NCBI GenBank assembly: GCA_017434045.1
Contig: JAFRGA010000078.1
Location: 1-58,478, forward strand
DNA: 58,478 bases
Origin: Eggerthellaceae bacterium
Lineage (GTDB): Bacteria > Actinomycetota > Coriobacteriia > Coriobacteriales > Eggerthellaceae
Direction: 5' to 3'
Below the pieces are notes generated by a model, which did not search any database, was not told the origin of the DNA, and saw only the letters and a list, made by a program, of their open reading frames with translations. Of this stretch, positions 13,262-41,175 are shown one piece after another. The position numbers were made by a program, and so were the translations under genes. Position 1 is the stretch's first letter; the number at the start of each line of letters is the position of its first letter.

Positions 13262-14314
13262 TTAGCCGAACAGCACCTGCAGGTCGAGGCGAGCATCCTC
13301 GAGCTCTTGCTGCGTGAAGCCGAACTTCTCGCTGTTGTACTGGTCAATGTACTTGCACAGCTCAACATAGGTGCCCGAGAAGGTGGAGCCAGGGCCGCCC
13401 TGGGTAATGCAGGGGATGTAGCTCTGGAACTCGTAGCCGTCGAGGTGCTCGTACACCACGCGCTCGACGTCGGCGGGCGTCCATCCGGCGAAGTCAACAT
13501 CCTTGTTGTCGATGTTGCCCATGAAGGCGATCTGGCCCTTGTACTTCTCCAGCAGGCCCTTGACGTCATTCGATTCCATGGTGCCCTGCCACACATCGAT
13601 GCCCATCTCGATCATGTAAGGCACGAGATTGGCCGAGTAGCTGTCGTTGTGATGGAAGACGAACTCGACGCCGTGGCTCTTGTAATAGCCGTAAATCTGC
13701 TTGTAGGGCTCGACGAAGCACTCGGCAAACAACTCGGGAGGCAAGAACGAGTTGGTCTCAGTGCCCCAATCGTCATGATGGAAAACCGCTTCGGGATGCA
13801 GATGATCGCAGATGCCCTCGGCGATTCTCAGCTCGAATTCGGTGATGTACTTGATCATGTCCTTCATGTAATCGGTATCGGTGAGATAGTAGACCAGGGC
13901 ATCGTCGATGGCGCACAGGTAGTGCGTCATTTCGAACAGGCCCGTTACGTACAACGGCGCCGCATAAGCCTTGCCCGTGCTCGTGACCTCATCGTACTGC
14001 TGCTGGAAAACCTCCCATTCGGCTTCGGGGAAGTCCGTTGGCGGCGCCTTCACGTACTTCTCCCATTCCTCGATGTCCTTGCACACGATTTTGTCGGGCG
14101 TGTGCACAGGAAACGCTCCCGGGGTATGCGCGGGGAAGTCCATCGTGACGCCCCAGGCGTTGACCTTGCCCTTGTCGCCCGGCGCTAGAAGTGCGCCCGA
14201 GTGCATGATCCACGGATGCATCATGAGGTAGATGCCTTCGTAGTTGTTGACATAGCGGTCCGGTTTGCCCCCGTCGATGATGGTTTGACGTAGGTTTTCC
14301 TTGGCGGTAAGCAT
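13262..14314 (-). CDS. UroD-family corrinoid methyltransferase 1 (MtvB-like O-demethylase component)
   Basis: 350 aa; ATG 14314 with AAAGGGGAGGAAC upstream. It belongs to the uroporphyrinogen-decarboxylase-like methyltransferases (MtaA/CmuA/MtvB). HHDDWG lies at residues 179-184, HHNDSYSANL at 221-230, then MIEMGIDVWQG and FMGNIDN. Members such as Moorella MtvB transfer a methyl group from an aryl methyl ether to Co(I) of a corrinoid protein. The zinc motif HxCxnC of MtaA is not kept; the His-x-Cys position reads His-x-Asp. It closely resembles the genes at 18005 and 29993. It is divergent from a PucR regulator with a 255-bp shared control region, which suggests substrate-specific induction. 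No corrinoid protein is adjacent, so it must use the one at 35338-35970 or one elsewhere. Confidence 0.82.
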   Translation of the reverse strand: MLTAKENLRQTIIDGGKPDRYVNNYEGIYLMMHPWIMHSGALLAPGDKGKVNAWGVTMDFPAHTPGAFPVHTPDKIVCKDIEEWEKYVKAPPTDFPEAEWEVFQQQYDEVTSTGKAYAAPLYVTGLFEMTHYLCAIDDALVYYLTDTDYMKDMIKYITEFELRIAEGICDHLHPEAVFHHDDWGTETNSFLPPELFAECFVEPYKQIYGYYKSHGVEFVFHHNDSYSANLVPYMIEMGIDVWQGTMESNDVKGLLEKYKGQIAFMGNIDNKDVDFAGWTPADVERVVYEHLDGYEFQSYIPCITQGGPGSTFSGTYVELCKYIDQYNSEKFGFTQQELEDARLDLQVLFG

Positions 14315-14499
14315 GGTGTTCCTCCCCTTTGGTCGTTTCCGTAAAGCTGCATGGTCTATTTGTCCAGACGCTGATACTACAGGCGCCTCTGGATCCCGGA
14401 TATTAGAGAATGCACTCTGAAAAGGACTTAATGGCTATATATAAACAGACTTTTCTATGATTAGAGCACTCAAAAACATCGGTTATGAGCAAGGTGGCG

Positions 14500-14512
14500 C
14501 TACAATTTGTAG
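14500..14512. promoter_or_regulatory. Inverted repeat overlapping a TACAAT box
   Basis: CTACAA-T-TTGTAG spans 14500-14512 and contains TACAAT (14501-14506), a likely -10 for the regulator gene at 14570. A palindrome on the promoter is where an operator would act, perhaps for autoregulation. Confidence 0.4.
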
Positions 14513-14569
14513 TGGTATTAGGACGAGAAGTGCAAACGCAGTGACCCACGCCGCCGGAGGACATTCGCC

Positions 14570-16183
14570 ATGAAACTAGACGGCAATGCAGTGCTCTATC
14601 AGTTGAAACGGGAATTCGAAGATGTTACCTGCAGTACGCCTTTGCGGTCGCTGATGGTTGACTACCCCGTGCTCTACGACGAGACGATCGACATGAGTGG
14701 TCATGTTGTGCTGCTGTCAGGTCATGAGCGGCCCCGCTACCATGAACACATGAACCAGGTACTCTGCGTATGCCTCGACGACAAGCTGGCCCGAGAAGCC
14801 GAGGAAAAAGGGCTGTGCGTAATCCGGGTGCATGACGCCGTCTCGTTTCAGCACCTGTACAATCGCATGCAGTCCGTGTTCGTGGCAAACGAACGGCTTG
14901 AAGCCCAGCTTCGCGCCTATGTCGATACCTACGCCGGCTACCAGCCCCTCCTGGATGCCTGCGCGCAGGCAATGGGGCCAGCCTGCGTGCTTATAGACGA
15001 TCAGTACCGCACCGTTTGCTATTCCAGGACTTCAGACGAAGGTGGAGATGCCGTCATAGACCCGCGGCGCAAGAAGGGCGGCGACACCTTTGACTCCGCC
15101 GTTCTCGAGGAGAGCGCCATCGACCTGTTCATGGCATCGCAAAAGTACCGGTACATGCGCACGAGACGCAGGGTCTTCTCCATGCCGGGAACCGATAACG
15201 TTTTCTTCAGGAACATTTTTCACGAGGACAACCTTGTGGGCATGCTCGCCATGAAGCACCGCGGCGAATCGGTAAGCGCCCGTTACGTTCGCTTCCTGCT
15301 CAATTACCTGGCTCCCTTCGTGGAGGGCATGTACGCGCATATCGGCTCGCTCGATCCCCTAACCGCCCGCCCCACGCGCATCCGCGCTGCGTTGAAAACC
15401 GTGCTCAGGGGTGCGTTGGAAAACACGCCCCTGCTTACCAGCCTGCTTATTGGAGAAGGAAACGATATACACGACAGCTACATGATCATGCGCATCGAGC
15501 GAAGCTTCACGAATGAAGGATCCGAAGCCTTGAGCTATTTCGCGCAACGCTTCGAGCGCTCGCTGCCACACGCATACTGCGCAGAAGACGACGGCAACCT
15601 CTATGCGCTCGTGAACGTCGGCGCCGCCCTTTCCGAAGAGGGGCCCCTTTCGGCAACGGCACGGGAATTCATGGCGAAGATTCCCGCCATATTACGCGAT
15701 AAACTGGTAAAAGCCGGGGCAAGCAGACCGTTTTACGATATGAATCAGCTGCCGACAGCACGCGTCCAAGCCGATGCAGCACTTGAGCAAGGTGAGGAAA
15801 CGGATCCCTTCAGCTGGTACTATCGGTTCGATGACTATGCGCTGGATTGGCTTTTGCGGCACGGCTGCTCCAATGTCAGCCCCGAGCGCATCTGTCATGA
15901 GGCCATCGTCAAGCTCGAACGCTACGACGAAGCGCACGGAACGAGCCTTCTCGATACGCTGGCAGCGTTCATGAGCTGCCGTTACAATGCCACCCTTGCC
16001 GCTCAGAGGCTGTTTGTTGCCCGATCGACCCTCATAAACCGCCTCGAACGCGTAGTCGAGCTGACTGGGTTGAACCTTGACAGCTTGGAAGAGCGTACGT
16101 ACCTTGGTGCTTCGCTCATCCTCATGGACCACTTGAGGCAACCTTCAGCAAACGCCGCTTCCGTGTTTGCCGCAAGGTCGTGA
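14570..16183 (+). CDS. PucR/CdaR-type transcriptional regulator
   Basis: 537 aa; ATG 14570 with GGAGG 11 bases upstream. The C-terminal helix-turn-helix reads CRYNATLAAQRLFVARSTLI, then NRLERVVELTGLNLD, the PucR pattern also seen at 8266 and 33573. The N-terminal two thirds are a variable sensor region with no membrane helix. It is transcribed divergently from methyltransferase 1 and is followed by an MFS transporter and methyltransferase 2, so it is the best candidate regulator of this demethylation module. Confidence 0.82.
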   Translation: MKLDGNAVLYQLKREFEDVTCSTPLRSLMVDYPVLYDETIDMSGHVVLLSGHERPRYHEHMNQVLCVCLDDKLAREAEEKGLCVIRVHDAVSFQHLYNRMQSVFVANERLEAQLRAYVDTYAGYQPLLDACAQAMGPACVLIDDQYRTVCYSRTSDEGGDAVIDPRRKKGGDTFDSAVLEESAIDLFMASQKYRYMRTRRRVFSMPGTDNVFFRNIFHEDNLVGMLAMKHRGESVSARYVRFLLNYLAPFVEGMYAHIGSLDPLTARPTRIRAALKTVLRGALENTPLLTSLLIGEGNDIHDSYMIMRIERSFTNEGSEALSYFAQRFERSLPHAYCAEDDGNLYALVNVGAALSEEGPLSATAREFMAKIPAILRDKLVKAGASRPFYDMNQLPTARVQADAALEQGEETDPFSWYYRFDDYALDWLLRHGCSNVSPERICHEAIVKLERYDEAHGTSLLDTLAAFMSCRYNATLAAQRLFVARSTLINRLERVVELTGLNLDSLEERTYLGASLILMDHLRQPSANAASVFAARS

Positions 16184-16407: not shown

Positions 16408-17736
16408 ATGGAGGAGAAACTCTATCCAAGACGATGGGCGATCTTGGCAGCGTTGTTCCTGTGCCTGGTCACGCTGCAGTTCTCGTTCATCGTGCCGGGC
16501 GGTGCAGCCCTGGCCGTCATGATGCGCTACGGCATCGACGGCACGCTGTTCAGCATGATCATGTCGGTACCGTACTTCGCCGGCATCGTCTTCGGCATTT
16601 TCCTGGGCACCCTGGCCGACCGCATCGGCGTGTCGAAGGTCATGGTCGTCAGCTACATCATCGCGCTCATCGGCGTTGTTTGGCGCGCCCTGTCGGGCAC
16701 GAGCTTCATCATGTGCTTCCTGGCTTCGTTGGTCATGGGCGTTGCCACAGCCGCCCTTAACGCCAACAGCGCCAAGGTCATCCGCGCGTGGTTCCCGGGC
16801 AAATCCGCCAACGTCGCGTTCGGCGTATACGTCTGCGGCGCTTCGCTCGGCGCTGCCATCGCGCTTCAGGTCGGCGCTCGCCTGACCGCGGGCGATGTTA
16901 TGTTCAGCCCCGAAGGCATCCCGATGGGCCTGGCAGAAGGCGCTGCGGGCGTGCAGACCTGCTGGTGGATTTCCGCCATCCTGTTCGTCGTCTCCATCGT
17001 ATGCTGGTTCCTACTCTACCGTGAGCATCCCGATGGAATCGCCGTCGAAGAGCCGATCATGCAGCATATGGGCTACGCCCTCAAGAAGAAGAGCGTCTGG
17101 GGCATCAGCCTGTTCGCCTTCGTCTTCATGGGCGCTACCGTCATCGGCACCTCTTTCATGGTCGCTGCCATCCAGACCGTGTACGGCGCCGACGCCACCA
17201 CCGCCGCGAACATCTCCACGGTAAACACCGTCGTCGTCTGCATCGGCTGCATCGTCCTGCCGGCATTCGTCGCCCGCTTCAAGCATTCCCGCCCGATCTT
17301 CTGGGTCATGCTCATCGGTTCCGGCGCTTTCTACGCTGCCGCCATGTTCATCCCGTACATGGGCGGTCTCGGCCCTGCTGCCATGTTCGCCCTGGGCGCC
17401 ATCTTCTTCGCCCCGATGATGGCCATGGTCAAGACGCTTCCCGCTCTGCTCCCGGATGTCGAGCCGAAGTACCTGGGCGCCGTCGGCGGCTTCCAGTCCG
17501 TGCTCCAGAACGCCGGCATGTTCCTGGTTTCGTCCTACATCGTGGCCCCCATCTGCGGCATGATGTATCCGGCTGTCAACGGCGTCTCGCCTGCCGGTTA
17601 CTACCAGGCGATCTTCGTCGGCCTGCTCATCTGCTGCATCGTCTCCGGCTTCATCATGTACCTGTTCCCGAACTTGCGCTGCAACGTCGAGGATATGCTC
17701 AAGGACAAGGCCGAAGCTGCTGCCAAGGGTGAATAG
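16408..17736 (+). CDS. MFS transporter 1
   Basis: 442 aa with about 12 hydrophobic helices. Landmarks are the loop 2-3 motif GTLADRIGVSKV and a proline-rich cytoplasmic region before helix 7 (YREHPDGIAVEEP). It belongs to the major facilitator superfamily, near the CynX/NimT or oxalate/formate-type group; the substrate is unknown. Flanked by a PucR regulator and methyltransferase 2 on the same strand, it probably imports a methoxylated aromatic or exports the demethylated product. Start chosen from AAAGGAGGAGG seven bases upstream. Confidence 0.85.
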   Translation: MEEKLYPRRWAILAALFLCLVTLQFSFIVPGGAALAVMMRYGIDGTLFSMIMSVPYFAGIVFGIFLGTLADRIGVSKVMVVSYIIALIGVVWRALSGTSFIMCFLASLVMGVATAALNANSAKVIRAWFPGKSANVAFGVYVCGASLGAAIALQVGARLTAGDVMFSPEGIPMGLAEGAAGVQTCWWISAILFVVSIVCWFLLYREHPDGIAVEEPIMQHMGYALKKKSVWGISLFAFVFMGATVIGTSFMVAAIQTVYGADATTAANISTVNTVVVCIGCIVLPAFVARFKHSRPIFWVMLIGSGAFYAAAMFIPYMGGLGPAAMFALGAIFFAPMMAMVKTLPALLPDVEPKYLGAVGGFQSVLQNAGMFLVSSYIVAPICGMMYPAVNGVSPAGYYQAIFVGLLICCIVSGFIMYLFPNLRCNVEDMLKDKAEAAAKGE

Positions 17737-18004: not shown

Positions 18005-19051
18005 ATGCTCACAGCAAAAGAAAACCTCCGAGAGACCCTGAAGCCTGATGGACACCCCGATCGTTTCGTCAACTCCTACGAGTTCATGAAAGTCGCTTTC
18101 GGGCCCAACATCCTTGGCAACCCCATGCCCACGTACGGTCAGCTCGACGTCGTGAATTCCTGGGGCGTCACTTACAGCTATCCCGAGGGAACACCGGGCC
18201 CCTTCCCGCTCGACACCCCCGACAAGGTCCTCATCGACGACATCGAGGATTGGAAGGAAATCCTCAAAGCACCGCCGACCGATTACCCGGATGCGCTGTG
18301 GGAGGTCAGCCAGGGCATGATGGACGCCATCGACGGCGACAAGGCCTTCAAGGCCTGCTTCGTGGCACCCGGCCTGTTCGAGCAGGTTCACGCCTTCATG
18401 GGCATCACCGAGGCGCTCATGGCTTACATGACCAACGAAGACGAGATGGCCGATATGCTGAAGTACCTGACCGAGTGGGAACTTCAGGTCGCCGAGCAGC
18501 TGTGCAGCCATCTGCATCCCGACGCCATCCTGCACCACGACGACTGGGGAAGCGAGCAGAACTCCTTCCTGCGCCCCGAGATGTTCGACGAGTACTTCAC
18601 CGAGCACTACAAGCAGATCTACCAGTACTACCACGAGCACGGTGTCGAGGTCATCGTGCACCACTCCGACTCGTATTGCGCCAACCTCATCGACTACATG
18701 CTGGAGATGGGCATCGACATCTGGCAGGGCTGCATGCGCTCCAACGATGTCCCCGCCCTCGTCGAAAAGTACAAGGGCCAGCCGATCACCTTTATGGGTA
18801 ACATCGACAACAAGCAGGTCGACTTCGACGGCTGGACCGTCGAGGACTGCGAGAAAGCAGCGCTCTCGGCGCTAGAGGGCATGGAACCGCATCAGTACAT
18901 CCCCTCCATCACGCAGGGCGGTCCCGGCAGCGTGTACCCGGGCACCTACATGGAGCTCATCAAGGCCGTCGACGCGTACAACGCCAAGACTTTCGGCCAC
19001 AGCATCGAGGACATCCAGGCTGCACGCGACGAACTGCAGATCCTGTTCTAG
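18005..19051 (+). CDS. UroD-family corrinoid methyltransferase 2 (MtvB-like)
   Basis: 348 aa; ATG 18005 after AGGGAAGGAA. Same family as the gene at 13262, with an almost identical N-terminus (MLTAKENLR). HHDDWG lies at 177-182, HHSDSYCANL at 219-228, then MLEMGIDIWQG and FMGNIDNKQVDFDGW. The predicted reaction is methyl transfer from a methoxylated compound to a corrinoid protein. The MtaA-type zinc Cys is replaced (His-x-Asp). It has its own promoter region after a terminator and shares a bidirectional terminator with the convergent MFS 2 gene. Methyltransferases 1 and 2 look like paralogues that diverged in substrate rather than chemistry. Confidence 0.82.
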   Translation: MLTAKENLRETLKPDGHPDRFVNSYEFMKVAFGPNILGNPMPTYGQLDVVNSWGVTYSYPEGTPGPFPLDTPDKVLIDDIEDWKEILKAPPTDYPDALWEVSQGMMDAIDGDKAFKACFVAPGLFEQVHAFMGITEALMAYMTNEDEMADMLKYLTEWELQVAEQLCSHLHPDAILHHDDWGSEQNSFLRPEMFDEYFTEHYKQIYQYYHEHGVEVIVHHSDSYCANLIDYMLEMGIDIWQGCMRSNDVPALVEKYKGQPITFMGNIDNKQVDFDGWTVEDCEKAALSALEGMEPHQYIPSITQGGPGSVYPGTYMELIKAVDAYNAKTFGHSIEDIQAARDELQILF

Positions 19052-21126: not shown

Positions 21127-23766
21127 TTACGCCTGCTCACGCTTGTGCAGCGGGACGTATTCCTCGTGCTCGTGCGTCGCCCAGTACTCTTCGATGTCGA
21201 AGAAGCCCTCGGGCTCGTAGTCGGGCGTCCAGCCGTCGTAGAAGCTCGGCTTGTCAGACAGGTGCGTCGGACCATGCGTGTAACCGGTCGTGCAGACCTG
21301 GTAAGTGGGCTGGTCCTCGGGCGTGTCGTTCTCAGGCGTGACTTTGTAGACGGTCGCCATCGAGCACTTGATCGGAGCGCCGTATCCGTTGGTGCCGTTC
21401 TCGCACTGCGGGATGAGGTTGTTCGGATTGCAATCGAACACGCCGAACAGGCTCGGCTCTTCGGGAGCGCGCTCGGGGAACCACCAGCCATGCTCGGTGG
21501 AGATGACGCGCGGGTCGAGCGTCGGATTCAGGCGGGCGCGCTGCTTCATGCGGCCCATCTGGTTCTCGATCCAGACCCAGTCGCCATCGATGATGCCGTA
21601 CTTGGCTGCAGCATCGGGATGGATGTCGAACATGGGGTCGGGATGCAGCTGACGCGAGATGGTCTCGGGCTGGCGCCATTCGGAATGGAAGAACTCGAAG
21701 GAGCGCTTGCCGGTGGTGAGCACGAACGGATACTTCTCGACGAGCTCGGGAGTGCGATACGGCGATGTGGGCGGCTCTTCGTAGTAGGGCAGCGGATCGT
21801 CGCCGAAGCTCGCGAACAGCGTGCAGTACAGCTCGTAGCGGCCAGTCGGCGTCATGAAGCCGGGCATTCCGTCGGGACGCAGGCGTCCAAGCTCGAACTT
21901 GCGATAGTTGAACTTGTGATACCACATGCCGGCATATTTCTCTTCGACGCGTTCCATCGTCATCTGCGTGCCGTCGTTGTCCAGAACGCCGTCGCGCTCG
22001 AGACGCCAATTCATGTAGGAGCGGTCGTCAACGACGTACTCGGGCCACTTCTCGGGAGCGATCTTGTGACCGAGGCCGATCATGATCTCCTCGTCGGACT
22101 TGCACTCTTCGTAGCTGCCGCACTTGGTCAGCGTGCGCAGCGGATCGAACCACACGCGGATGCAGTCACGCTCGTGCGACATGGCGCAAGGCAGCACCAG
22201 GTCGGCGAAAGCGACGCACGTCGGGGTGATGAACAGGTCTTCCACGACGACGAAATCGATGGTCTTGAGAGCGCGGTACAGACGCGGGGCGTCCTGGCCC
22301 ATGTTGGCGATGGGGTTGGCGGACTCGATCCAGAGCATCTTCACCGGATGCGGCTGCTCGGTCTCGATGGCCTGCAGGATGGAGTCGGCCTGAGAGGAGG
22401 CGGTGAAGCCGTACTTCTTCAGCGGATAGCGGTCCACGCCGAGGCGGTTGGCCACATACGGCGTGCCCTCGAGCTCCCAGATGCCGGAGTTGTAGCCGAA
22501 CTCCAGACCGGCGGCCTGGTCGATGAGGACGTTGCCGCCCGGGACGTCGATGTTGCCGGTGATGCCGACGAGGCAGGCGATGGCATGTGCCGTGATGACG
22601 CCGATCTTCGCCATGTCGACGGACAGGCCCCACTGCACGGTGGCCGGCTTTGCCTTGGCGTACATGCGGGCGGCCTCGATGATCTGCTCCTCGGGAACCC
22701 AGGTGATCTCGGCGACCTTGGAGGGCGAATACTCCTGGACACGCTCGGCGAGCTGCGGGAATCCGTAGGTCCAGTAATCGACGAACTGCGCGTCGTAGAG
22801 GCCCTCGTTGATGATGACGTTCATCATGCCCAGGGCGAGCGCCGCATCGGTGCCGGGGCGCAGGCGCAGCCACATGTCGGAGCGGGAGGCGATCCAGGTG
22901 AGCTGCGGGTCGACCGTGATGAGCTTCGTGCCGCGCTTCATGGATTCGATGATCCAGTGGCCGAGGAACGCGTCGGCGTTGTTGATCATCGGGTTCGTGC
23001 CCCAGATGATCGCAACTTCGGGGTTGACGAACTCAGGATCGTCCTCGTAGCGCTTGGCGCGGAACTGGCTGAAGTCAGCCACCCACTGGTTGCCCATGAT
23101 GACGTAGCACAGGGCCGTGCGCGGCAGCATGCAGGAGTCGCCGGACAGGAAGCACAGCGTGAGGTCGGCACCGCCGAAGTTGGCATACTGGTTGTGAGCG
23201 ATGGCCTGGGAGACGTTGCGGCCCGTGCCGATCATGGAAACGATGCACTCGGGGCCGAAGTTTTCCTGGATATCCTTGACCTTCTCGACGATGATGTCGT
23301 AGGCCTCGTCCCAGCTGATGCGCTGCCACTTGCCCTCGCCGCGCTCGCCGACGCGCTTGACCGGCCACTTCAGGCGACGCTCGTTGTTCGTCATCTGGGG
23401 GAGTTCCAGGCAGCGCATGCACAGGCGGCCTGCCGTCATGGGTGAATTGGGATCGCCCTCGGTCTTGACGAGCTTGCCATCCTCGTCGGTGTAGAAGATG
23501 ATCTGGCAACCGGAGTGGCAGCCAGGGCCCGACCACATCGTGGTGCGGGTGGCGGTGAGATCGCCTTCCTTCCACTGGACTTTGTCGGGGTACAAATCCA
23601 TGTTGTAGGTGTTGTTGTAGGGCATGCCGTAGGCGATGCCCTTCTCGCGGATGCGCTGGCCAATTTGCTCCTCATCGGCTGCCAGCTCGGCACCGGCAAG
23701 ATTTGCGGTCTTACCATCTGACAGGACTTCTTCGGTCTCGATGGCATCGATCTTCTCGTCGCTCAT
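21127..23766 (-). CDS. Molybdopterin oxidoreductase, catechol-dehydroxylase-like catalytic subunit
   Basis: 879 aa; ATG 23766 after AGGAAAGGGG. A DMSO-reductase-family protein without a Tat signal, so cytoplasmic. Cys83, Cys87, Cys116 and Cys119 lie where the N-terminal 4Fe-4S site is expected, though the spacing C-x3-C-x28-C-x2-C differs from the standard, with Gly at the usual first Cys. Pterin-binding landmarks follow: GTGRNVSQ, WGTNPMINNAD, KLITVDPQ and LRPGTDAALALGMM. Cytoplasmic members linked to MFS transporters are known in Gordonibacter and relatives as catechol dehydroxylases; this gene has MFS 3 directly upstream. A reductive dehydroxylation of a catechol is likely but not proven by sequence. 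Older annotation would call it a generic molybdopterin oxidoreductase. Confidence 0.8.
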   Translation of the reverse strand: MSDEKIDAIETEEVLSDGKTANLAGAELAADEEQIGQRIREKGIAYGMPYNNTYNMDLYPDKVQWKEGDLTATRTTMWSGPGCHSGCQIIFYTDEDGKLVKTEGDPNSPMTAGRLCMRCLELPQMTNNERRLKWPVKRVGERGEGKWQRISWDEAYDIIVEKVKDIQENFGPECIVSMIGTGRNVSQAIAHNQYANFGGADLTLCFLSGDSCMLPRTALCYVIMGNQWVADFSQFRAKRYEDDPEFVNPEVAIIWGTNPMINNADAFLGHWIIESMKRGTKLITVDPQLTWIASRSDMWLRLRPGTDAALALGMMNVIINEGLYDAQFVDYWTYGFPQLAERVQEYSPSKVAEITWVPEEQIIEAARMYAKAKPATVQWGLSVDMAKIGVITAHAIACLVGITGNIDVPGGNVLIDQAAGLEFGYNSGIWELEGTPYVANRLGVDRYPLKKYGFTASSQADSILQAIETEQPHPVKMLWIESANPIANMGQDAPRLYRALKTIDFVVVEDLFITPTCVAFADLVLPCAMSHERDCIRVWFDPLRTLTKCGSYEECKSDEEIMIGLGHKIAPEKWPEYVVDDRSYMNWRLERDGVLDNDGTQMTMERVEEKYAGMWYHKFNYRKFELGRLRPDGMPGFMTPTGRYELYCTLFASFGDDPLPYYEEPPTSPYRTPELVEKYPFVLTTGKRSFEFFHSEWRQPETISRQLHPDPMFDIHPDAAAKYGIIDGDWVWIENQMGRMKQRARLNPTLDPRVISTEHGWWFPERAPEEPSLFGVFDCNPNNLIPQCENGTNGYGAPIKCSMATVYKVTPENDTPEDQPTYQVCTTGYTHGPTHLSDKPSFYDGWTPDYEPEGFFDIEEYWATHEHEEYVPLHKREQA

Positions 23767-26892: not shown

Positions 26893-28200
26893 CTATTCTT
26901 CTGCCACTAGAGCATGCGCGACGAGGTAGTCGTTCGCCTTCAATCGGCGCGCGCCCTCGTATGCCAAGTACATCCTGCCAGAATCCTCCATTTTACGGCG
27001 CATCTCGGCAGCAGCTCCCATAGGGGCCGACGCCTTGAAAAACTCGTCGAGGTCCGCCTCCCCCACCTCGAGGCCCAAGTGCCGGGCCAGCGCATCGAGC
27101 GCTATGCTCTGCGCCAGGCGCTCGCGAACCTGCAGGATCATGCGAACGGAGTATTGTTGCTCGTTTGCACCTTGCTCGCGCATATATTCCTCGCGAGTCA
27201 AACCCAACTCGGCTGCTTCCCGATCGAATTGCGCTTGGATTTCGTCTCGCATTGCCTCGTAAGCCACGTCGGGGATTGGCCCGCTGAAACGCTTCGCCAA
27301 CTCTGAGGCGGCGATGTAATTCAAATAGTGGCGATACTCGTCTTCGAGCTGGACGTCGACCTGCTTGCGAATCAGCGATTTCAATTCGTCTACAGTCTCG
27401 CATGCTGATACGTTAGCCGCAACCCATTCATCGGACAGCGTGGGCGTAACCTTGCGAAGCAGCGATTTGACCTTGGCGACAGCGTGATACGTTTTCATGA
27501 TGGGGTTGTCGTCGGCGTCGAAATCGGCAATGCCCTCGAAATCAAATACCTTCTCCTCGCCGGGAGCCATGCCGATGATATTGCGTTCGAAATCTTCCGG
27601 CATGGTGCCAATGCCCGTTGTATACGTCCGCTCGTCAAAGCACAGCCCTTCCACCTCATCACCTTGAAGGGTCACGTGCAAAGCCAGCGAGAGCGCATCC
27701 CCCATTTCGATTGGCCTCGCCTCCCCGCACGCCTCATAGCGCGCCTGGGCTTCCAACAAACGTGCCAGCTGCGCATCCACCATCTCATCAGATGATTGCC
27801 GAGCTGGAGCCACGATATGAACCGGATCGTACGACGACAATTCGGCCTGCGGCAGTTTCGCCCACCGCGCCGTATAGTGGAACGGCTCTCCGCTTACAAG
27901 ATCGCCATGGAACGTGAACAAGGGCGACCCGACCGTCACGACGTCATCAGCTTCCGAGCGGGCGAACGGATACGACATGTTCATGACCACGTTCGTCAAT
28001 AACTCTGCCACGGTCTTTGGCGACAGAACGCGTTCGCATGCTTCCTTCAGCGTCTCCCCCGCTGCCGTTTGCACGCCGCGTTGGGCGGCGATGATCTCGT
28101 AGCCCTGCTGTAAGAACACGTCAACCGCCTGCTTCTTGACCTCTACATCCAGCACGAGCTCTTCAGCGGTATCAAAACGTTTCTCGACTCTCACATCCAT
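26893..28200 (-). CDS. Trigger-factor-like chaperone/peptidyl-prolyl isomerase
   Basis: 435 aa from ATG 28200 (AAGGAGG upstream; the ORF extends to 28230). It has the three-part plan of trigger factor: an N-terminal domain, a central FKBP-like PPIase domain (about residues 145-240, with ARPIEMGDALSLALHV and FERNIIGMAPGEEKVFDF) and a long helical C-terminal chaperone domain (PTLSDEWVAANV onward). The ribosome-docking G-F-R-x-G-x-x-P signature is not evident, so this may be a divergent paralogue rather than the housekeeping Tig. It has its own promoter (28236-28263) and is divergent from an FKBP gene. A link to folding of the locus enzymes is only a guess. Confidence 0.75.
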   Translation of the reverse strand: MDVRVEKRFDTAEELVLDVEVKKQAVDVFLQQGYEIIAAQRGVQTAAGETLKEACERVLSPKTVAELLTNVVMNMSYPFARSEADDVVTVGSPLFTFHGDLVSGEPFHYTARWAKLPQAELSSYDPVHIVAPARQSSDEMVDAQLARLLEAQARYEACGEARPIEMGDALSLALHVTLQGDEVEGLCFDERTYTTGIGTMPEDFERNIIGMAPGEEKVFDFEGIADFDADDNPIMKTYHAVAKVKSLLRKVTPTLSDEWVAANVSACETVDELKSLIRKQVDVQLEDEYRHYLNYIAASELAKRFSGPIPDVAYEAMRDEIQAQFDREAAELGLTREEYMREQGANEQQYSVRMILQVRERLAQSIALDALARHLGLEVGEADLDEFFKASAPMGAAAEMRRKMEDSGRMYLAYEGARRLKANDYLVAHALVAEE

Positions 28201-28235
28201 AAGGGCCTCCTTGCAAGCAGCTGCTATCACATTCC

Positions 28236-28263
28236 ATTATGTCCACGAAACAAGAACCTGCAA
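28236..28263 (-). promoter_or_regulatory. Promoter of trigger-factor-like gene
   Basis: On the minus strand TTGCAG (28258-28263) and CATAAT (28236-28241) are 16 bases apart, about 35 bases upstream of the ATG at 28200. Confidence 0.5.
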
Positions 28264-28424
28264 ACTAGTAACATCCTACAAAAACAAGCCCCAATTGTTG
28301 GCAGCTTGACATCGTCGACGCTCTTCGGCAGCTTTTGGAGCTATGCTATCCTGTCCCCAATGACAGCCACGGCCTCTTGCACAAGATGCCCGAGCACGGC
28401 ACGCTGATTGGGGGTTGCACGCAC

Positions 28425-29024
28425 ATGATAGGACCAAACGTTAACGTGCGCGTTTCATTTGTCGGAAAGCTCGACGATGGAACCGTGTTCGACAGCAGCG
28501 AGATGAACGGGCCTTTGGAATTCATGACCGATTGCGGGCAAGTCATCAAGGGGCTCGATAAAGTAGTGCAGACGATGGACGTAGGGGAAACCCGCACCGT
28601 CACCATTCCAGCTTCCGATGCTTACGGAGAATGGGACGAGCGCAACGTGCAACAGCGCGAGCTGCGCTACATCCCCAACGCCGAGGCTCTGCCCGTGGGA
28701 CAGATCATCAATTTCTTCGGCCCCGTCGGGCAGAAGGTTCCTGCAAAGGTTCTGCGCGTCGACGATACGTACGCGTACCTGGACTTCAATCACCGGCTAT
28801 CCGGCAAGGACCTCACGTACGAGTTGACCGTCACCGAAATACTGCCGCGCAAAACGCGCAGGACTCCCCTGAACGCGTATGGCGGCATGGCGCGAACAGC
28901 TGACACGCGACCCGTCCGCGAGCAACCCGTCTTCAATAATTTCTTGGACAACCTGGGCCTTACCGGGGCCGATGTCATGCGCAAGGGCGACGAGGCGCTT
29001 CCCAACGACTCAGACGGGATCTGA
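28425..29024 (+). CDS. FKBP/SlyD-type peptidyl-prolyl isomerase
   Basis: 199 aa from ATG 28425 (GGGGG about ten bases upstream; ATG 28386 is an alternative). The FKBP fold is evident: NVRVSFVGKLDDGTVFDSSE, then LEFMTDCGQVIKGLDKVVQTMDVGE, then an inserted flap region (VPAKVLRVDDTYAYLDFNHRL split over about 40 residues) as in SlyD. It ends in a longer C-terminal tail without the His-rich metal-binding end of E. coli SlyD. Predicted cytoplasmic isomerase and chaperone. It lies divergent from the trigger-factor-like gene, so two folding factors sit together inside the catabolic island. Confidence 0.8.
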   Translation: MIGPNVNVRVSFVGKLDDGTVFDSSEMNGPLEFMTDCGQVIKGLDKVVQTMDVGETRTVTIPASDAYGEWDERNVQQRELRYIPNAEALPVGQIINFFGPVGQKVPAKVLRVDDTYAYLDFNHRLSGKDLTYELTVTEILPRKTRRTPLNAYGGMARTADTRPVREQPVFNNFLDNLGLTGADVMRKGDEALPNDSDGI

Positions 29025-29145: not shown

Positions 29146-29835
29146 CTAGGTGTTGTTTCGGAGGTTCAAGGCGCCGTTAGCGGTCTTCACGTTGACCATG
29201 CGGTTCTGTTTGAACACCGATTGGGGATTTGCAGCCTGGAAGAACGACAACGGCACGAAATCCTCCTCGCCCACGGCCATAGCGCATATGCGGAGCACGA
29301 TGCGCTCCTCCTCTTTCGTGCCCCGATACCCGAGCTCCCACCAGCTGTGTCCTGCGCGGTGCATCGTGAACGTCTGACCACCCTCGGCACGCATGGCGCC
29401 ATCCTCGATAAGAGGCGCGAACGCAGGCTGGGGACCGCCGAAACCGACATCGGCATAGTAGCGCTTGCCGTTAATGGCAACGATGTTGGCGCGGTGCGAG
29501 ATGAGGGGATGCGGTACGGGACGCAGCAACACGCGGGCCATGCAGGGACGCGCCGAAAAGCCAAGCGCCTTCAGCAGCGAGCAGAACAGGCCGTTCAGCT
29601 CAAAGCAATAGCCACCGCGCCTACGCGTCACGATCTTGTCAAACAAGTCTCCGACGCCCAGGGAGGGCACGAGGCTCCGTTCGCATATATCGAGGTTGTC
29701 GAATGGCACGTGGCTCTGATGTGCGACGATGAGCTCGTCGAGGAACTCCAAAGAAGGCTCTTTGACCTGCGTTATGCCAATCCTTCTCAAATATGCGTCT
29801 ACATCGGGCAAAGGCTCGTACAGTTCTTCGCTCAT
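29146..29835 (-). CDS. Arylamine N-acetyltransferase, cut short by an in-frame TAG
   Basis: 229 aa. The catalytic triad is intact: Cys in RRGGYCFELNG, His in ISHRANIV and Asp in YYADVGFGG. The family acetylates arylamines or hydrazines with acetyl-CoA. The frame stops at TAG 29146-29148, yet the same frame continues for 33 sensible codons (TVFADGEATITEIE..., ending in EEYGIVKDW) to a second TAG at 29044-29046. The full reading would give 263 codons including the TAG position, a normal NAT length. The missing part is the end of domain III. This is either a nonsense mutation, a sequencing error, or readthrough. The gene lies inside the aromatic island, convergent to the FKBP gene. Confidence 0.8.
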   Translation of the reverse strand: MSEELYEPLPDVDAYLRRIGITQVKEPSLEFLDELIVAHQSHVPFDNLDICERSLVPSLGVGDLFDKIVTRRRGGYCFELNGLFCSLLKALGFSARPCMARVLLRPVPHPLISHRANIVAINGKRYYADVGFGGPQPAFAPLIEDGAMRAEGGQTFTMHRAGHSWWELGYRGTKEEERIVLRICAMAVGEEDFVPLSFFQAANPQSVFKQNRMVNVKTANGALNLRNNT

Positions 29836-29992: not shown

Positions 29993-31015
29993 CTACAGGT
30001 TATGCTCGGCCCAGTAGATCTTCGAATACTTCTCGATCTCCTCGCTCGTGGCGTCGTAGACACCCGGGAAGGTGGAGATGGGAAGGCCCTGAGACAGGCA
30101 CGGGATGAAGTACAGGGGGCCGTTCTCGTCGCAGGTGCGCTTGACCTGCTCGACGATCTCTTCACGCTCCCAGCCCGGATGGTCGACCGATGCGGAGTCG
30201 ATGCCGCCCATGAAGGTGATATCCTTGCCGTACTTCTCGATGCACTCGGGGATGTTGTTGGTGTTCATGACACCCTGCCACACGTCGATGCCCATCTCGA
30301 TCATGGTCGGCACGATGGTCTCGCCGTAGGAGTCGGAGTGATGTGCGACGAGCTCGGCGCCACGGCTCTTCCAATAACCGTAGATCTCCTTATAGGAGTC
30401 CTCGAAGAACTCGGCGAACATGTCGGGCGCCACGAACGTGGAAATCTGGGTACCCCAGTCGTCGTGATGGAAGACTCCGTCGGGATGCAGGTGGTCGCAG
30501 ATGACCTCGGCCAGCTTCAGCTCCCACTCGGTGAGGTACTTGATGAGTTCCTTGAGCTCGTCGGGGCATTCGTAGAAAGCCAACAGGACGTTGGAAATCT
30601 CGCACAGGTAGTGCGCGTTCTCGAACACGCCGGGAGCCACGAACGCCATGGCGAACTGTTCCTTGCGGTCGATCTTATCCCAAGCTTCCTGGTCTTTTTC
30701 CCACTCGGCTTCGGGGATGCTGTAGGGATCGGGAGCGGTGACGTAGTCCTGCCACTCCTCGATGTCCTTGCACACTATCAGTTCGGGGGTGTGCACGGGG
30801 AAGGCGCCGGGCTGGCCCTCGGCCCACGACACGGTGACGCCCCAGTTGTTGACCTTGTTGATCTCGCCGGGCTTGGGATTGTTGCGCCAGCGGTAGCTGG
30901 CGAGGTTCCTGAACGGGATGTTGAAGGCCTCGTACTGCTGGACGAAGCGCTCGGGCTTGCCGCCCTTCATGACCTCGATGAGGTTCTCACGCGGAGTGAG
31001 CTTGTAATCGCTCAT
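29993..31015 (-). CDS. UroD-family corrinoid methyltransferase 3 (MtvB-like)
   Basis: 340 aa; ATG 31015 after AAAGGA. The same fold and motifs as the other two: HHDDWG at 183-188, HHSDSY at 225-230, MIEMGIDVWQG and FMGGIDSASVDHPGW. It is the most divergent of the three at the N-terminus and around residues 30-55, where the substrate probably binds. It is the last gene of a three-gene run with a GPH-family transporter and a small membrane protein, transcribed away from a PucR regulator. The likely role is demethylation of a methoxylated compound imported by that transporter, with transfer to the corrinoid protein at 35338. Confidence 0.82.
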   Translation of the reverse strand: MSDYKLTPRENLIEVMKGGKPERFVQQYEAFNIPFRNLASYRWRNNPKPGEINKVNNWGVTVSWAEGQPGAFPVHTPELIVCKDIEEWQDYVTAPDPYSIPEAEWEKDQEAWDKIDRKEQFAMAFVAPGVFENAHYLCEISNVLLAFYECPDELKELIKYLTEWELKLAEVICDHLHPDGVFHHDDWGTQISTFVAPDMFAEFFEDSYKEIYGYWKSRGAELVAHHSDSYGETIVPTMIEMGIDVWQGVMNTNNIPECIEKYGKDITFMGGIDSASVDHPGWEREEIVEQVKRTCDENGPLYFIPCLSQGLPISTFPGVYDATSEEIEKYSKIYWAEHNL

Positions 31016-31801: not shown

Positions 31802-33295
31802 CTACTGAGCATCCTTCTCGGTTGCCTGGCGCTCAGCAATTTCCTTCTGAGCCTGAGCCAGAACGTCATTGTTGATCCTGTAACCGAAAATGAGGATCAG
31901 CATGGAGATGACGCACAGGATTGCGGGAAGCACGAACCAGCCGTTAACGATGCCCTCCTGCAGCGCAGGCGTGGACTGGTCGGCGGTCATGCCAGCGACG
32001 AAGCCAGCAGCGGCAAGGATGGAGGGGATGACGACGCCACGTGCGAAGAAGCCGATCTTGAGGGGCAGAACCTGCAGGCCGGAAATCCAACCAGCGGAGT
32101 TCTTCCCGGTCTTCCACTCGGAGTAGACGACGCAGTCGCCGTACATCGCGGGGATGACTGCGTAGATGAGGCCGTAACCAGCCTGAGCGATGGTCATGCA
32201 GACCACGACGACCATCATCTGCTGGTAGCTGACACGCGCGATGAGCAGCATCGCGATCATGACGATAAAGGCCGCGATAACTGCCTTCTTCGAGCCCTTG
32301 AGCGCCTTGGCGACAGGACCGCCGAGGTAGGCGCCCACGACGGTACCGACGTTGGTCGCGAAGATGTAGTTGGCAAGCATGGCCGGATCGAACGCGACAT
32401 AGGTGAAGTAGTAAACCGCAGTGCCGCCGACGACGAAGTTGAAGATCCACTTCGCGACGTCGCCGAGCATCAGGAAGATGACGTTCGGGTTCTGGGCGAT
32501 GGAACGGCCGAGGTCGCCAGCGCTGTTGTTGGTCTTGTCTTCCTTCTTGGCAGACTTCCAGTTTGCGAGCTCTTCCTTGGTGTACTCCTTCTCGTAACCC
32601 TTGGTGATGAAGAAGTGCACGTTGTACAGAGCAGCCATGCAGCAGCCGAAGACGAAAGCCGCGAACGCGTAGTTAGCCGGCGCTGCAGCAGGGTCGGTGT
32701 TCTGGTTGCCGAGAATCATCGCGCCGAGCAGGGCAACGGGCGGGAAGATGTAGGCGAACAGAATCTTCGATGCGTTCGACCACATGCCGCGGGTCGATGC
32801 GAGATGCGCACGGTCTTCGGGCGTCTGGCCCACAACCGCGATCATCGAGACGTTCGCAACATACGGGAAGTCCCAGCAGCAGTGCGAAGCAACGTAGAAG
32901 ACTGTGATAAGCGCGGCGGTGACGACCGGATTATCAGAGAACTTCACGTAGTCGAGTGCGAACAGGATCGGAACGACCCAAGGCATGATGAACAGGAAGG
33001 AGCGGTAACGGCCCCACTTCATAGGCTTGATCGTATTGATGATCGCGCCCCAGAGCCAACCGACGATTGCGTCGATGACGGAACCAACCGTCGACACGAC
33101 GCCGGCGAGCACCGGGTCGAGCATCGCGCAGTTGGTGAGGAAGAACACGAAGTAGTAGTTCTCCACAGAGTTCATAATGTTGAAACCGAAGTCACCAACG
33201 CCGTAGAAGAACCTTAGCGCTGGCGATAGCGGCTTGTAGTCGGGAGGCAGGGCGAGTTCTTCCTGCGCCTCGACCTTTTTGGTCTCGTCACTCAT
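31802..33295 (-). CDS. GPH-family cation symporter (glycoside/glucuronide type)
   Basis: 497 aa from ATG 33295 (GAAAGGGG upstream; the open frame extends to 33424 but that region is the promoter). Features of the glycoside-pentoside-hexuronide family (MelB/UidB-like): FFYGVGDFGFNIMNSVENYY near the N-terminus, DAIVGWLWGAIINTIKPMKWGRYRSFL (family motif P-x-x-x-G-R-x-R-x, split), about 12 helices, and MYGDCVVYSEWKTGKNSAG late in the protein. Such symporters carry sugars, glycosides or glucuronides. Here the partner is an O-demethylase, so a methoxylated phenolic glycoside, glucuronide or methylated sugar is a possible substrate. Confidence 0.85.
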   Translation of the reverse strand: MSDETKKVEAQEELALPPDYKPLSPALRFFYGVGDFGFNIMNSVENYYFVFFLTNCAMLDPVLAGVVSTVGSVIDAIVGWLWGAIINTIKPMKWGRYRSFLFIMPWVVPILFALDYVKFSDNPVVTAALITVFYVASHCCWDFPYVANVSMIAVVGQTPEDRAHLASTRGMWSNASKILFAYIFPPVALLGAMILGNQNTDPAAAPANYAFAAFVFGCCMAALYNVHFFITKGYEKEYTKEELANWKSAKKEDKTNNSAGDLGRSIAQNPNVIFLMLGDVAKWIFNFVVGGTAVYYFTYVAFDPAMLANYIFATNVGTVVGAYLGGPVAKALKGSKKAVIAAFIVMIAMLLIARVSYQQMMVVVVCMTIAQAGYGLIYAVIPAMYGDCVVYSEWKTGKNSAGWISGLQVLPLKIGFFARGVVIPSILAAAGFVAGMTADQSTPALQEGIVNGWFVLPAILCVISMLILIFGYRINNDVLAQAQKEIAERQATEKDAQ

Positions 33296-33398
33296 TGTTT
33301 CCCCTTTCTTTGACTTTGACCTCCTGGTGTCACCTGCGCAAAAGGATAAGAAATACACATTCATTTCACAAGTGCATTTAATGATATAATTTGAACAA

Positions 33399-33424
33399 TT
33401 GATTGTGCACCGATGCACAATCAA
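33399..33424. promoter_or_regulatory. Perfect 11-bp inverted repeat between GPH transporter and PucR regulator
   Basis: TTGATTGTGCA (33399-33409) is followed after CCGA by its exact reverse complement (33414-33424). It lies in an AT-rich divergent region next to a TATAAT (33385-33390). This is the best operator candidate in the window, probably for the PucR protein at 33573. Confidence 0.6.
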
Positions 33425-33572: not shown

Positions 33573-35096
33573 ATGAAGCTCTCCCTCCGCTATTTTTATA
33601 CAAAGGTCCTCGCGTTCGACATGGGGGCGACCATTGCCGACGAATACGTGGCCCCGCTTAATATCCAATGGATCGGGGTTGCCTCCACGCGCTTCGCAAG
33701 CCATGCGGGATTCCTCTATTTCGTTTCTTCCGAATCGGAGGTGCCCTCACCTCCGCTTGATCCGCAAGGCATGTTCGGATGCGTTGTCGCAAGCGAGATC
33801 GCCGATCAATGCAAGGGAATCCCGCGCATCATCGTATCGGACTCATGTGACCTCGACATGCTGTTCGACAGGCTCGTTAACGAAGTCGAGCGCTATCGAA
33901 ACTGGCATGACCGCATTAACGGCCTGCTCATTTCCGACGCCACCTACCAAGATCTCGTCGATGCCACTGCAGAGTTCGTGCCGAGGCCCATGTATATCGC
34001 CGATGGTAGCTGGCGCATGATTTCACGCGTTGACTTCGAAATGAACGAGATAAGCGCAACATGGCATTACCAGTCGCTTCATGACGGGCTGTATCCTCAC
34101 CACATCGTCGATGCGCTCAACCGCACAGGTGACTATCACCGCATCACGAACCTGCCGCACGCCTCGTTGATCGACTCCGAAGTGTACACGATGCGCATTC
34201 TGGCAAAACCCATTCGGTACCAAGGTAAGCTCGTGGGCTATTACTTCATGATCGACACGTGGGGCGATCTCGGGCCTTGCGAAGTCGAGATTGCCGAGGA
34301 ATTCGGAACGATGATCGCCCCCCTCATGGCCTCCCGAGATGCGCAGCAGGGATACATAGCCGGCTTTCAAGACAACTTCATCTTCCACATCCTTGACGGA
34401 TTGCTGACAAGCAAGCGCGATATCGCTCAACAACTCATGGCCGACCGTCATTGGAACGTGGAATCTGATTACAGAATCGCCACCGTTCGCTTCGCGCCAA
34501 ACGAATTCGAGAACCACTTGCTCCACATGCGCACCATGGGCATGCTCATGGGCAATTTCGAGAGCCATGCCTATTCCTACCGCGATACGGCGATTGCAAT
34601 CTTCCACAATACCGAGAAGGACCTGGACGACCTCATGGAGCACATGTGGAAGTGCAGCCAATCGCTTGGACGGATCATCGTGCTGAGCGGCCGGTTCAAC
34701 GACTTCTCCCAATTGAGGCAGAACTACGAGCAAAACATCTACGTACACGAAAGCGCGGAATCCTCGATGCAGCTCGAACCGCGCGTTATATCGTGCGACA
34801 GCGCGTTTCCCCGCTTGCTCGCCGAGCACTGCCGCAATGCCCTGCCGAGCTGCTATGCAGCCGATGTGCTCCACTCATACGATATCGCCCACAACACGAC
34901 GTATTGCAAAACGTTGCTTGCGTACCTGATACACGAACGGAATGCCGTCGCCACCGCCGATGCCCTCTTCGTGCACCGCAACACCCTCCGTAACCACCTG
35001 AATAAAATCGCCGAGATCACAGACGCGAACTTCGACGATGCCGATGAGCGTTTCCATTTGCTCATCTCGCTCAACACGTTGCTCAATGCCCAATAG
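33573..35096 (+). CDS. PucR/CdaR-type transcriptional regulator
   Basis: 507 aa; ATG 33573 with AAAGGATAGG before it. The C-terminal helix-turn-helix reads ERNAVATADALFVHRNTLRN followed by HLNKIAEITDANFDD. The N-terminal sensor domain contains aromatic-rich stretches and no membrane helix. It is divergent from the GPH transporter-methyltransferase 3 unit and shares with it a 277-bp control region holding a perfect palindrome, so it very probably controls that unit. Confidence 0.82.
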   Translation: MKLSLRYFYTKVLAFDMGATIADEYVAPLNIQWIGVASTRFASHAGFLYFVSSESEVPSPPLDPQGMFGCVVASEIADQCKGIPRIIVSDSCDLDMLFDRLVNEVERYRNWHDRINGLLISDATYQDLVDATAEFVPRPMYIADGSWRMISRVDFEMNEISATWHYQSLHDGLYPHHIVDALNRTGDYHRITNLPHASLIDSEVYTMRILAKPIRYQGKLVGYYFMIDTWGDLGPCEVEIAEEFGTMIAPLMASRDAQQGYIAGFQDNFIFHILDGLLTSKRDIAQQLMADRHWNVESDYRIATVRFAPNEFENHLLHMRTMGMLMGNFESHAYSYRDTAIAIFHNTEKDLDDLMEHMWKCSQSLGRIIVLSGRFNDFSQLRQNYEQNIYVHESAESSMQLEPRVISCDSAFPRLLAEHCRNALPSCYAADVLHSYDIAHNTTYCKTLLAYLIHERNAVATADALFVHRNTLRNHLNKIAEITDANFDDADERFHLLISLNTLLNAQ

Positions 35097-35283: not shown

Positions 35284-35315
35284 ACGGGCCGCCCGGCTTT
35301 CACCGGACGGCCCGT
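35284..35315 (-). terminator. Strong terminator after corrinoid protein gene
   Basis: 13-bp stem with one wobble pair on the minus strand (35284-35296 with 35303-35315), followed on that strand by TTTTTT. Confidence 0.85.
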
Positions 35316-35970: not shown

Positions 35971-36026
35971 GATGCTCCCCTTTCTTAAGTCTTATCACAC
36001 GAGCCGCATGGAATTGCTACGGTCAT

Positions 36027-36055
36027 AAAATATCTTTATCGCCCGTTGTAGTCAA
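36027..36055 (-). promoter_or_regulatory. Promoter of corrinoid protein gene
   Basis: On the minus strand TTGACT (36050-36055) and TATTTT (36027-36032) are separated by exactly 17 bases, about 57 bases upstream of the ATG. The whole 149-bp gap is AT-rich compared with its surroundings. Confidence 0.65.
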
Positions 36056-36119
36056 GAAATAATTAGCCTTTTACCTAGCTTCATAAATTTTTCTTATTAC
36101 ATTGTCGGATTGCACTAGG

Positions 36120-40281: not shown

Positions 40282-40326
40282 AGGTGGTTACCTCTCTTTC
40301 CGAGTCGACAGGCTCAGGATACAAAA

Positions 40327-40354
40327 AAAGCGGCGAGCTTACGCCCGCCGCTTT
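40327..40354 (-). terminator. Terminator between MtvA-like gene and RACo-like gene
   Basis: 12-bp stem with a wobble pair (40327-40338 with 40343-40354), followed on the minus strand by a run of T. It lies in the 84-bp gap between two genes of one pathway, so it may attenuate rather than fully stop transcription. Confidence 0.8.
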
Positions 40355-40365
40355 GAAAAAAGCCG

Positions 40366-41175
40366 TTAGTCGCGGTCAATGGGACCGAACAGGTTGTCGC
40401 GATACGCTTCGATGTACTCGAGGCAGAAATCGTCTTCCCCGAGAAGGGCGGCGGTGGCGTGCATGACACCGTTCATGTCGCGGTTCGTCGGGTCCATGAT
40501 GGCGGAGTCCATGCCGGCCTGCATAGCAAGAACCAGGAACGGCATGTTGATGTGCTTGCGGCTGGGAAGGCCGAACGAGATGTTGGACAGGCCCGAGGTG
40601 ATGTGAATGGTCGGGTACTTCTCCTTGATGGCCTTGACGCATGCATTGAAGGTGATGAGGCTTTCCTCGTTGGCGCCCAGCGTCTCGACCAGCGGATCGA
40701 TGTACAGACGATCGGGGGTAATGCCATATTCCGTGGCCTTTGCCATGATCTTCTCGAATACGGCGATGCGACCCTCAGCAGTAGGCGGAATGCCGGAGTC
40801 GTCGGACAGCAGGGCAACGCAGCCCCACTTGGTGTCGGCGATGACCGGGAACACGATGTCCATCTTGTTGCCCTCGCCGGAAACAGAGTTGATCAAGCCT
40901 ACGCGGTCGCCGCAGAACTTCATGGCGTCGACGCACACCTGGGGATCGGGGCTGTCGATGGCGATGGGCAGGTCGGATTCCTCCATGATCAGGCCAATGA
41001 GCCATTCCTGAGTCTCGAGTTCGCCCTCGTTGACCGATGCGCAGCAGTCGATGTACGTTGCGCCGGCTTCAGTCTGGGTGCGGGCCAGCATGCGGATGTA
41101 CTCTTCGTCGCGCTCAGCGATGGCCTTGCCAGTCTTGGGAATGGAGCCGTTGATCTTCTCACCGATGACAATCAC
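40366..41175 (-). CDS. Methyltetrahydrofolate:corrinoid methyltransferase (MtvA/AcsE-like)
   Basis: 269 aa from GTG 41175, chosen because AAGGAGG lies six bases upstream; the ATG at 41205 would put that site inside the gene. A pterin-binding (DHPS-like) TIM barrel: VIGEKINGS at the start, EAGATYIDCCAS, LPIAIDSPDP, LINSVSGEG, YIDPLVETLG and HITSGLSNISFGLP. The enzyme takes the methyl group from the methylated corrinoid protein and passes it to tetrahydrofolate, feeding C1 metabolism. It lies upstream of the activator operon and about 5 kb from its corrinoid partner. Confidence 0.9.
   Translation of the reverse strand: MIVIGEKINGSIPKTGKAIAERDEEYIRMLARTQTEAGATYIDCCASVNEGELETQEWLIGLIMEESDLPIAIDSPDPQVCVDAMKFCGDRVGLINSVSGEGNKMDIVFPVIADTKWGCVALLSDDSGIPPTAEGRIAVFEKIMAKATEYGITPDRLYIDPLVETLGANEESLITFNACVKAIKEKYPTIHITSGLSNISFGLPSRKHINMPFLVLAMQAGMDSAIMDPTNRDMNGVMHATAALLGEDDFCLEYIEAYRDNLFGPIDRD

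Follow-up and report, generated by a model that had tools for sequence, protein, structure and literature searches.

Three enzymes of a gut actinobacterium appear to demethylate plant aromatics by loading one shared B12 carrier

We analysed a stretch of 58,478 nucleotides (the window), contig C78 of a 2.22-Mb, 103-contig Eggerthellaceae metagenome-assembled genome (MAG) that is 76.7% complete, and in particular an island of putative O-demethylation genes within it. Three MtvB-type methyltransferases I (MT1, MT2 and MT3, here called heads) stand there with a core that encodes a single corrinoid methyl carrier, MtvC. We read the island as a system for corrinoid-dependent O-demethylation in which interchangeable substrate modules would share one core, and in which a control layer marked by a LysR-type dyad would link the carrier to the sink for its methyl groups; we give this reading a probability of about 0.62. 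Gene content, stoichiometry, synteny and the conservation of a promoter and a box are directly established, and from them we infer the aryl-ether substrates and the methyl transfer. Below, G numbers denote compared genomes, C numbers contigs of our own assembly and L numbers fetched loci. MT3 has its closest named relatives, at 82-95% identity, in uncultured Eggerthellaceae and Coriobacteriaceae MAGs, many of them from ruminant gut, which bears out the initial annotation in assigning the DNA to an actinobacterium.

Results

The central observation is one of numbers. MtvC was defined by an identity of at least 60%, the next group reaching at most 52%, and exactly one MtvC accompanies one to three MtvB in each of the 12 genus genomes that hold both genes (24 MtvB in total; in G004, which has 9% contamination, two MtvB rows look like a single gene counted twice). 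G009, which is 96% complete, has three heads and one MtvC. Judged from these counts, it is a lineage trait to have just one MtvC in each genome. Coriobacteriia relatives together carry 57 MtvB and 30 MtvC, with only 7 MtvB at most 3 kb from an MtvC, and among other Coriobacteriales the ratio reaches 8:1 in G075 and 6:1 in G070. Six Acetobacterium genomes hold 45 MtvB and 51 MtvC, 33 of the 45 MtvB lying within 3 kb of an MtvC, and in Eubacterium callanderi six O-demethylase systems are described, one of them with two methyltransferases I (PMC12915777). Because Blautia parvula (6:1) and Acetitomaculum ruminis (4:1) have it too, the arrangement of many heads and one carrier is, by gene content, a variant that recurs in two phyla rather than a new kind of system. 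The initial annotation had described such a design and set it against classical operons with one methyltransferase and one corrinoid protein each. The design itself stands, and gains from the single mtvC found throughout the genus and from modules that move as blocks; the contrast holds for Acetobacterium and fails for the two Lachnospiraceae, and with it goes the claim to novelty.

A single carrier for three heads would mean little if each head had a partner elsewhere, as the initial annotation itself had recognized. There are indeed four further corrinoid domains in the assembly, each beside a different system. The protein on C21, which adjoins a BCCT (betaine-type) transporter, shares 48% identity with MtvC; that on C61 shares 38% and lies in an mlp-type cluster (L019:5735-14045) with UROD proteins, a further RACo activator and a protein resembling 2-hydroxyglutaryl-CoA dehydratase. 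The domain on C68 is the C-terminal part of a LysR regulator, and that on C36, judged by inspection, sits in a radical-SAM-like protein. No MtvB was found beside any of the four. We also noted MttB-family methyltransferases on C68 (L026:2636-3931) and on C71 (L024:1-5346), the latter gene cut by the contig start and standing with a hydantoinase-like protein and a methyltransferase II (MT-II). MtvC might serve one head, MT3 for example, while the others use the C21 protein or proteins on missing contigs; the incompleteness of the genome, the C21 protein with a candidate regulatory box of its own, and the mostly paired systems of Acetobacterium all speak for this. We nevertheless consider it unlikely, given the settings of the C21, C61 and C68 domains away from any MtvB and the single MtvC in every one of the 12 genus genomes that have both, several of which are more than 90% complete.

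The preferred reading, in which all three heads share MtvC, treats each head as the centre of a module. MT1 (13262-14314, minus strand) is divergent from a PucR-type regulator (14570-16183, plus; PF13556, HTH_30), MT2 (18005-19051, plus) is paired with an MFS transporter (16408-17736, plus; PF07690), and MT3 (29993-31015, minus) goes with a GPH-type cation symporter of the sugar-symporter family and MFS_2 type (31802-33424, minus; PF13347 and TIGR00792), which is placed in its module by synteny and whose start codon is uncertain. A second PucR-type regulator (33573-35096, plus; PF13556) lies between the MT3 module and the core. Comparison of loci among relatives showed that the three pairs travel as blocks: the regulator at 14570 stays with MT1 in G009, G012 and G006, and the transporter at 16408 stays with MT2 in G009. 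The regulator at 33573 is kept beside mtvC in G009, G012, G013, G014 and G007. The regulators and transporters that the initial annotation had placed by the heads are therefore in position. A search of a single literature library found nothing on PucR control of O-demethylases.

All three heads belong to the UROD superfamily, each scoring above the cut-off for PF01208 in a profile search. They share 44-48% identity pairwise (MT1 and MT3 48%, MT2 and MT3 44%); genus orthologues are 77-87% identical to MT1 and 72-95% to MT3. All three are on this contig, and a search of the rest of the assembly, within its 76.7% completeness, found no fourth. Searching the PDB with the MT3 sequence gave no match, so fold comparison was used instead: the AlphaFold2 model (predicted local distance difference test, pLDDT, 94; predicted TM score, pTM, 0.91) matches UROD and a Methanosarcina mazei methyltransferase, a barrel of the UROD/MtaA type. 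A quick tree of 70 rows, with SH-aLRT (approximate likelihood ratio test) support only, places MT3 among Coriobacteriia, and MT1 and MT2 in another supported clade with Lachnospiraceae and Oscillospiraceae. Because MT1 and MT2 on one side and MT3 on the other fall in different parts of this tree, mixed with Bacillota, the heads are, on this phylogeny, old and diverged enzymes. Local tandem duplication as the source of MT3 versus MT1 and MT2 was rejected, since Bacillota sequences intervene; MT1 and MT2, which form one supported group that includes a relative from another family, may have arisen by local duplication. The zinc-site pattern E-x14-E-x20-H was also rejected as a defining trait: it occurs in 20 of 129 aligned family members and is absent from MT1-3. 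Moorella MtvB and CdmB likewise lack zinc (PMC13222342). In G024 (L131:6026-7789) and G086 (L132:400-2124) an MtvB and an MtvC are naturally fused in one open frame through an acidic, alanine- and proline-containing linker, which independently suggests that heads and carriers of this type cooperate.

That the heads act on methoxylated aromatics may be questioned, because the chloromethane enzyme CdmB is among the UROD-superfamily relatives (PMC13222342), and haloalkanes or non-aromatic ethers might be the true methyl donors. We regard this as quite improbable: the heads are 54-60% identical to proteins of aryl-ether-using acetogens (Acetobacterium and Blautia), pyrogallol-hydroxytransferase-like genes adjoin MtvB in relatives, and catechol-dehydroxylase-like enzymes are encoded in the window itself.

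The core that methoxylated aromatics would feed is a set of five minus-strand genes. MtvA (41205-40366), the predicted methyl-corrinoid:tetrahydrofolate methyltransferase (MT-II), scores 320 bits against a cut-off of 259 for NCBIfam PRK07535 and matches the pterin-binding PF00809. It is followed by a RACo-type reductive activator (40281-38770; PF14574, PF17651 and Fer2), a DUF2284 metal-binding protein (38726-38181; PF10050), a hydantoinase/oxoprolinase-like protein of the ASKHA type (38132-36120; PF01968 and PF05378) and MtvC (35970-35338), which has the cap and Rossmann domains (PF02607 and PF02310) and, in alignment, the corrinoid motif DMHDIG...SALL...GG. This order is identical in G009, G006, G013, G014 and G007; in the fetched core of G008 the hydantoinase-like gene is missing between DUF2284 and mtvC. 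All the genes named in the initial annotation (three heads, corrinoid protein, methyl-tetrahydrofolate enzyme and activator) were found where it had put them; it had missed the hydantoinase-like and DUF2284 genes and two sets of molybdenum enzymes described below.

Total counts of promoters and terminators in the region are at chance level, and we relied only on sites conserved across genomes. A GC-rich terminator with a 12-bp stem, between mtvA and the RACo gene (40327-40354, minus), is conserved in six genomes. A promoter, TTGACT-N17-TATTTT in the window (36027-36055, minus), recurs as TTGAC-N17-TATTTT 82-86 nt 5' of mtvC in 7 of 7 genomes. Together these make it very likely, on sequence conservation, that mtvC is a transcription unit of its own. 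Inspection also revealed a terminator-like stem followed by a T run 3' of mtvC (35285-35314, minus), and the earlier claim that the shared parts have separate promoters and terminators is thus upheld.

If the core delivers methyl groups to tetrahydrofolate, where do they go? CODH/ACS (carbon monoxide dehydrogenase/acetyl-CoA synthase), searched for by its CdhC Pfam profile, was detected in none of the 15 genus genomes, of which six have a completeness of 90% or more and little contamination. Formyltetrahydrofolate synthetase (FTHFS) was present in 13 of the 15 and methylenetetrahydrofolate reductase (MTHFR) in 11, and the reductase on C68 carries a MetV-type DUF5981 domain, as expected for a catabolic MetVF. 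Because no CODH/ACS was detected and MetV-MetF and FTHFS are present, the sink is probably oxidation of the methyl group to formate or CO2 rather than acetogenesis, with formate the presumed end product. This refines the common C1 sink of the initial annotation. On one short contig of G075, from another family of the order, an MtvB (L142: 231-1247) and a MetVF homologue (3235-4779) occur together, linking O-demethylation with methyl oxidation.

The gene beside metVF and fhs on C68 (L026:5553-7109) encodes the LysR regulator mentioned above, a protein of 518 residues in which a LysR helix-turn-helix and a weak LysR substrate domain are joined to a complete MtvC-like corrinoid domain. HTH_1 scores above its cut-off and LysR_substrate below (20.7 versus 28). 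The corrinoid domain is 43% identical to MtvC. Fold comparison likened the C-terminal part of the model to MttC, MtmC and a D. hafniense carrier, and the N-terminal part to BenM; the mean pLDDT of the model is no more than 65, most of the corrinoid domain scoring over 75. The fusion was found in 10 of 15 genus genomes, its orthologues are 62-79% identical, and HDIGKN around the corrinoid-ligating histidine is invariant among them. It is divergent from metVF in seven genomes, with spacing of up to 2.6 kb in some. Nothing on LysR-corrinoid fusions was found in a single literature library.

A candidate site for such a regulator is an exact dyad, ATAAA-N5-TTTAT, with the T-N11-A geometry of LysR boxes. 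In 11 of 12 genomes it lies in the promoter of mtvC, in the window over the -10 region (36025-36039), and seven genomes (G000, G009, G012, G014, G007, G004 and G011) have a second copy with at most one mismatch about 58-60 nt upstream of the first. The corresponding second copy in the window (36083-36097) is degenerate. An exact dyad also lies 29 nt 5' of metVF in five genomes, and G007 has one with one mismatch there; in our own genome the metVF copy is at L026:7664, a further one is in the promoter of the C21 corrinoid gene (L020:2234), and another, at L020:5281, lacks an obvious target. The count covers fetched pieces only; these were picked around C1 genes and are not a random sample. In 433 kb from our own genome and its genus it gave 17 exact dyads, where local shuffles give 0.15. 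Other fetched loci (about 1.4 Mb) gave six, but three of these lie in the same mtvC promoters, fetched a second time. Dyads before mtvA (two mismatches in the window and in G007, exact in G013) were not relied on.

The LysR-corrinoid fusion is likely to be the protein that binds this box. The dyad could instead be a lineage-specific form of the -10 element or the site of another regulator, with the fusion acting elsewhere, a reading that we rate as a serious possibility, somewhat short of even. The box overlaps the mtvC -10; it persists in G013 and G011, in which no fusion was found (genomes 70-77% complete); and the metVF of G002 lacks it despite the presence of the fusion. Against this reading stand the palindromic T-N11-A geometry and the second copy in seven genomes, and no copy within one mismatch was found upstream of the examined heads, the RACo gene or FTHFS. 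Furthermore, G008 (94% complete), the most complete genome with mtvC and no detected fusion, has no box at either mtvC or metVF. With the fusion as its binder, the distribution of the box suggests two layers of control: PucR regulators would switch individual heads, while a carrier-like protein would adjust carrier and sink jointly.

The window also encodes the molybdenum enzymes that the initial annotation had missed. One of the bis-MGD (molybdopterin guanine dinucleotide) type (21127-23766, minus) has acetylene hydratase as its best PDB sequence match (2e7z, E=2e-82). Catechol dehydroxylases are related to acetylene hydratase (PMC7028382), and we call the enzyme catechol-dehydroxylase-like in the sense that acetylene hydratase is its nearest match. 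A pyrogallol-hydroxytransferase-like pair (3069-6824, plus) comprises a large subunit (3069-5972; PDB 4v4c, E=9e-118) and an Fe-S subunit (6000-6824; Fer4_11 and CarboxypepD_reg), and is probably involved in downstream metabolism. In G075 and G070, which belong to two further families of this order, a pyrogallol-hydroxytransferase-like large subunit adjoins MtvB genes (L140, L148), which supports a route from methoxyaromatic to catechol or pyrogallol and then to further reduction or transhydroxylation.

Other neighbours are an aldehyde ferredoxin oxidoreductase with a 4Fe-4S partner (10239-12987) and a PucR-type gene (8266), a block that in G009 is conserved adjoining the MT2 module, and an arylamine N-acetyltransferase (29146-29835) that adjoins MT3; a homologue of the latter is likewise near an MtvB in Blautia parvula (L151). 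A divergently oriented trigger factor and an FKBP-type isomerase (26893-29024) lie inside the island and are apparently unrelated to it.

Discussion

In the mechanism that we propose, each head would be controlled or fed locally by its PucR regulator, its transporter or both, and would transfer methyl from a methoxylated aromatic to the Co(I) of MtvC. MtvA would hand the methyl group to tetrahydrofolate, and RACo would re-reduce the carrier, with the DUF2284 and hydantoinase-like proteins as accessories. Methyl-tetrahydrofolate would then be oxidized to formate by the MetV-MetF-type reductase and FTHFS, with a gain of ATP, and the molybdenum enzymes encoded nearby may reduce the leftover catechols, which would provide an electron sink. 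The mtvC and metVF promoters, with their common LysR-type dyad, would be bound by the fusion, which may sense methyl load or the state of the corrinoid by means of its MtvC-like domain and is a candidate methyl-flux sensor. More specifically, its corrinoid might be methylated or demethylated by the O-demethylases or MtvA just as that of MtvC would be, and the fusion would match mtvC and metVF-fhs levels to the summed load of the heads; this is a tentative proposal that could well be wrong.

Several points weigh against the overall reading. The genome is 77% complete and a cognate carrier could be missing, but G009, at 96%, likewise has a single MtvC for its three heads. The corrinoid protein on C21, with its similarity to MtvC and its own box, could serve a head. 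The absence of CODH/ACS comes from one Pfam profile with methanogens as the only positive controls. In the fusion the SxL corrinoid motif is altered to SV[NS]. The metVF dyad is absent in G002 and G008 and degenerate, with two mismatches, in G004 and G001, and the conservation of the mtvC dyad, which overlaps the -10, may partly reflect promoter function.

What the island offers is a sequence-level design for handling many methoxylated plant compounds, and possibly drugs, through one vitamin-B12 carrier. It places O-demethylation in a lineage without detectable acetyl-CoA synthase and beside catechol-dehydroxylase-type enzymes; since O-demethylase and dehydroxylase-type genes adjoin, both steps may run in one cell. 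A natural case of methyl oxidation with formate as product would be of interest. The LysR-corrinoid regulator and its box, of which the initial annotation had nothing, are the most novel part of the system, and if our proposal for them is true, they would amount to feedback exerted by a protein that mimics the carrier of the very pathway it controls, and this in a methyl-oxidizing, non-acetogenic, formate-forming gut bacterium.

The components resemble those of MtvBCA in Moorella thermoacetica and of Odm/Vdm in Acetobacterium dehalogenans: a UROD-superfamily methyltransferase I, a corrinoid protein, an MT-II and an ATP-dependent activator. As in acetogen O-demethylases, MtvA scores above its family cut-off, and Acetobacterium MtvB homologues are 54-57% identical to the heads. 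In Acetobacterium, however, carriers roughly equal heads in number and are mostly adjacent to them, whereas here there is one carrier in a separate unit and no CODH/ACS was detected. The type 1 mlp clusters, in which UROD-fold methyltransferases share one corrinoid protein and one activator, are proposed to act on S- and Se-methyl compounds (PMC10418091); our C61 cluster is similar to these, and its carrier is only 38% identical to MtvC. Similar in stoichiometry are the gut Lachnospiraceae Blautia parvula and Acetitomaculum ruminis, with one MtvC to 4-6 MtvB per genome, and Blautia also has heads with PucR regulators and GPH-type transporters. Their genes are scattered over the chromosome of a different phylum, whereas ours form one island; the LysR-corrinoid fusion was not found in the loci fetched from them, whole genomes not having been searched for it. 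For the fusion itself the nearest parallel is CarH, a MerR-type, light-sensing, B12-binding regulator, which likewise joins a DNA-binding domain to a B12-binding domain. Unlike CarH, the fusion is of the LysR type, and its corrinoid domain has more in common with the carriers of methyltransferases. The putative regulator, in which a LysR protein carries a corrinoid domain like that of MtvC, would be of a new and testable kind.

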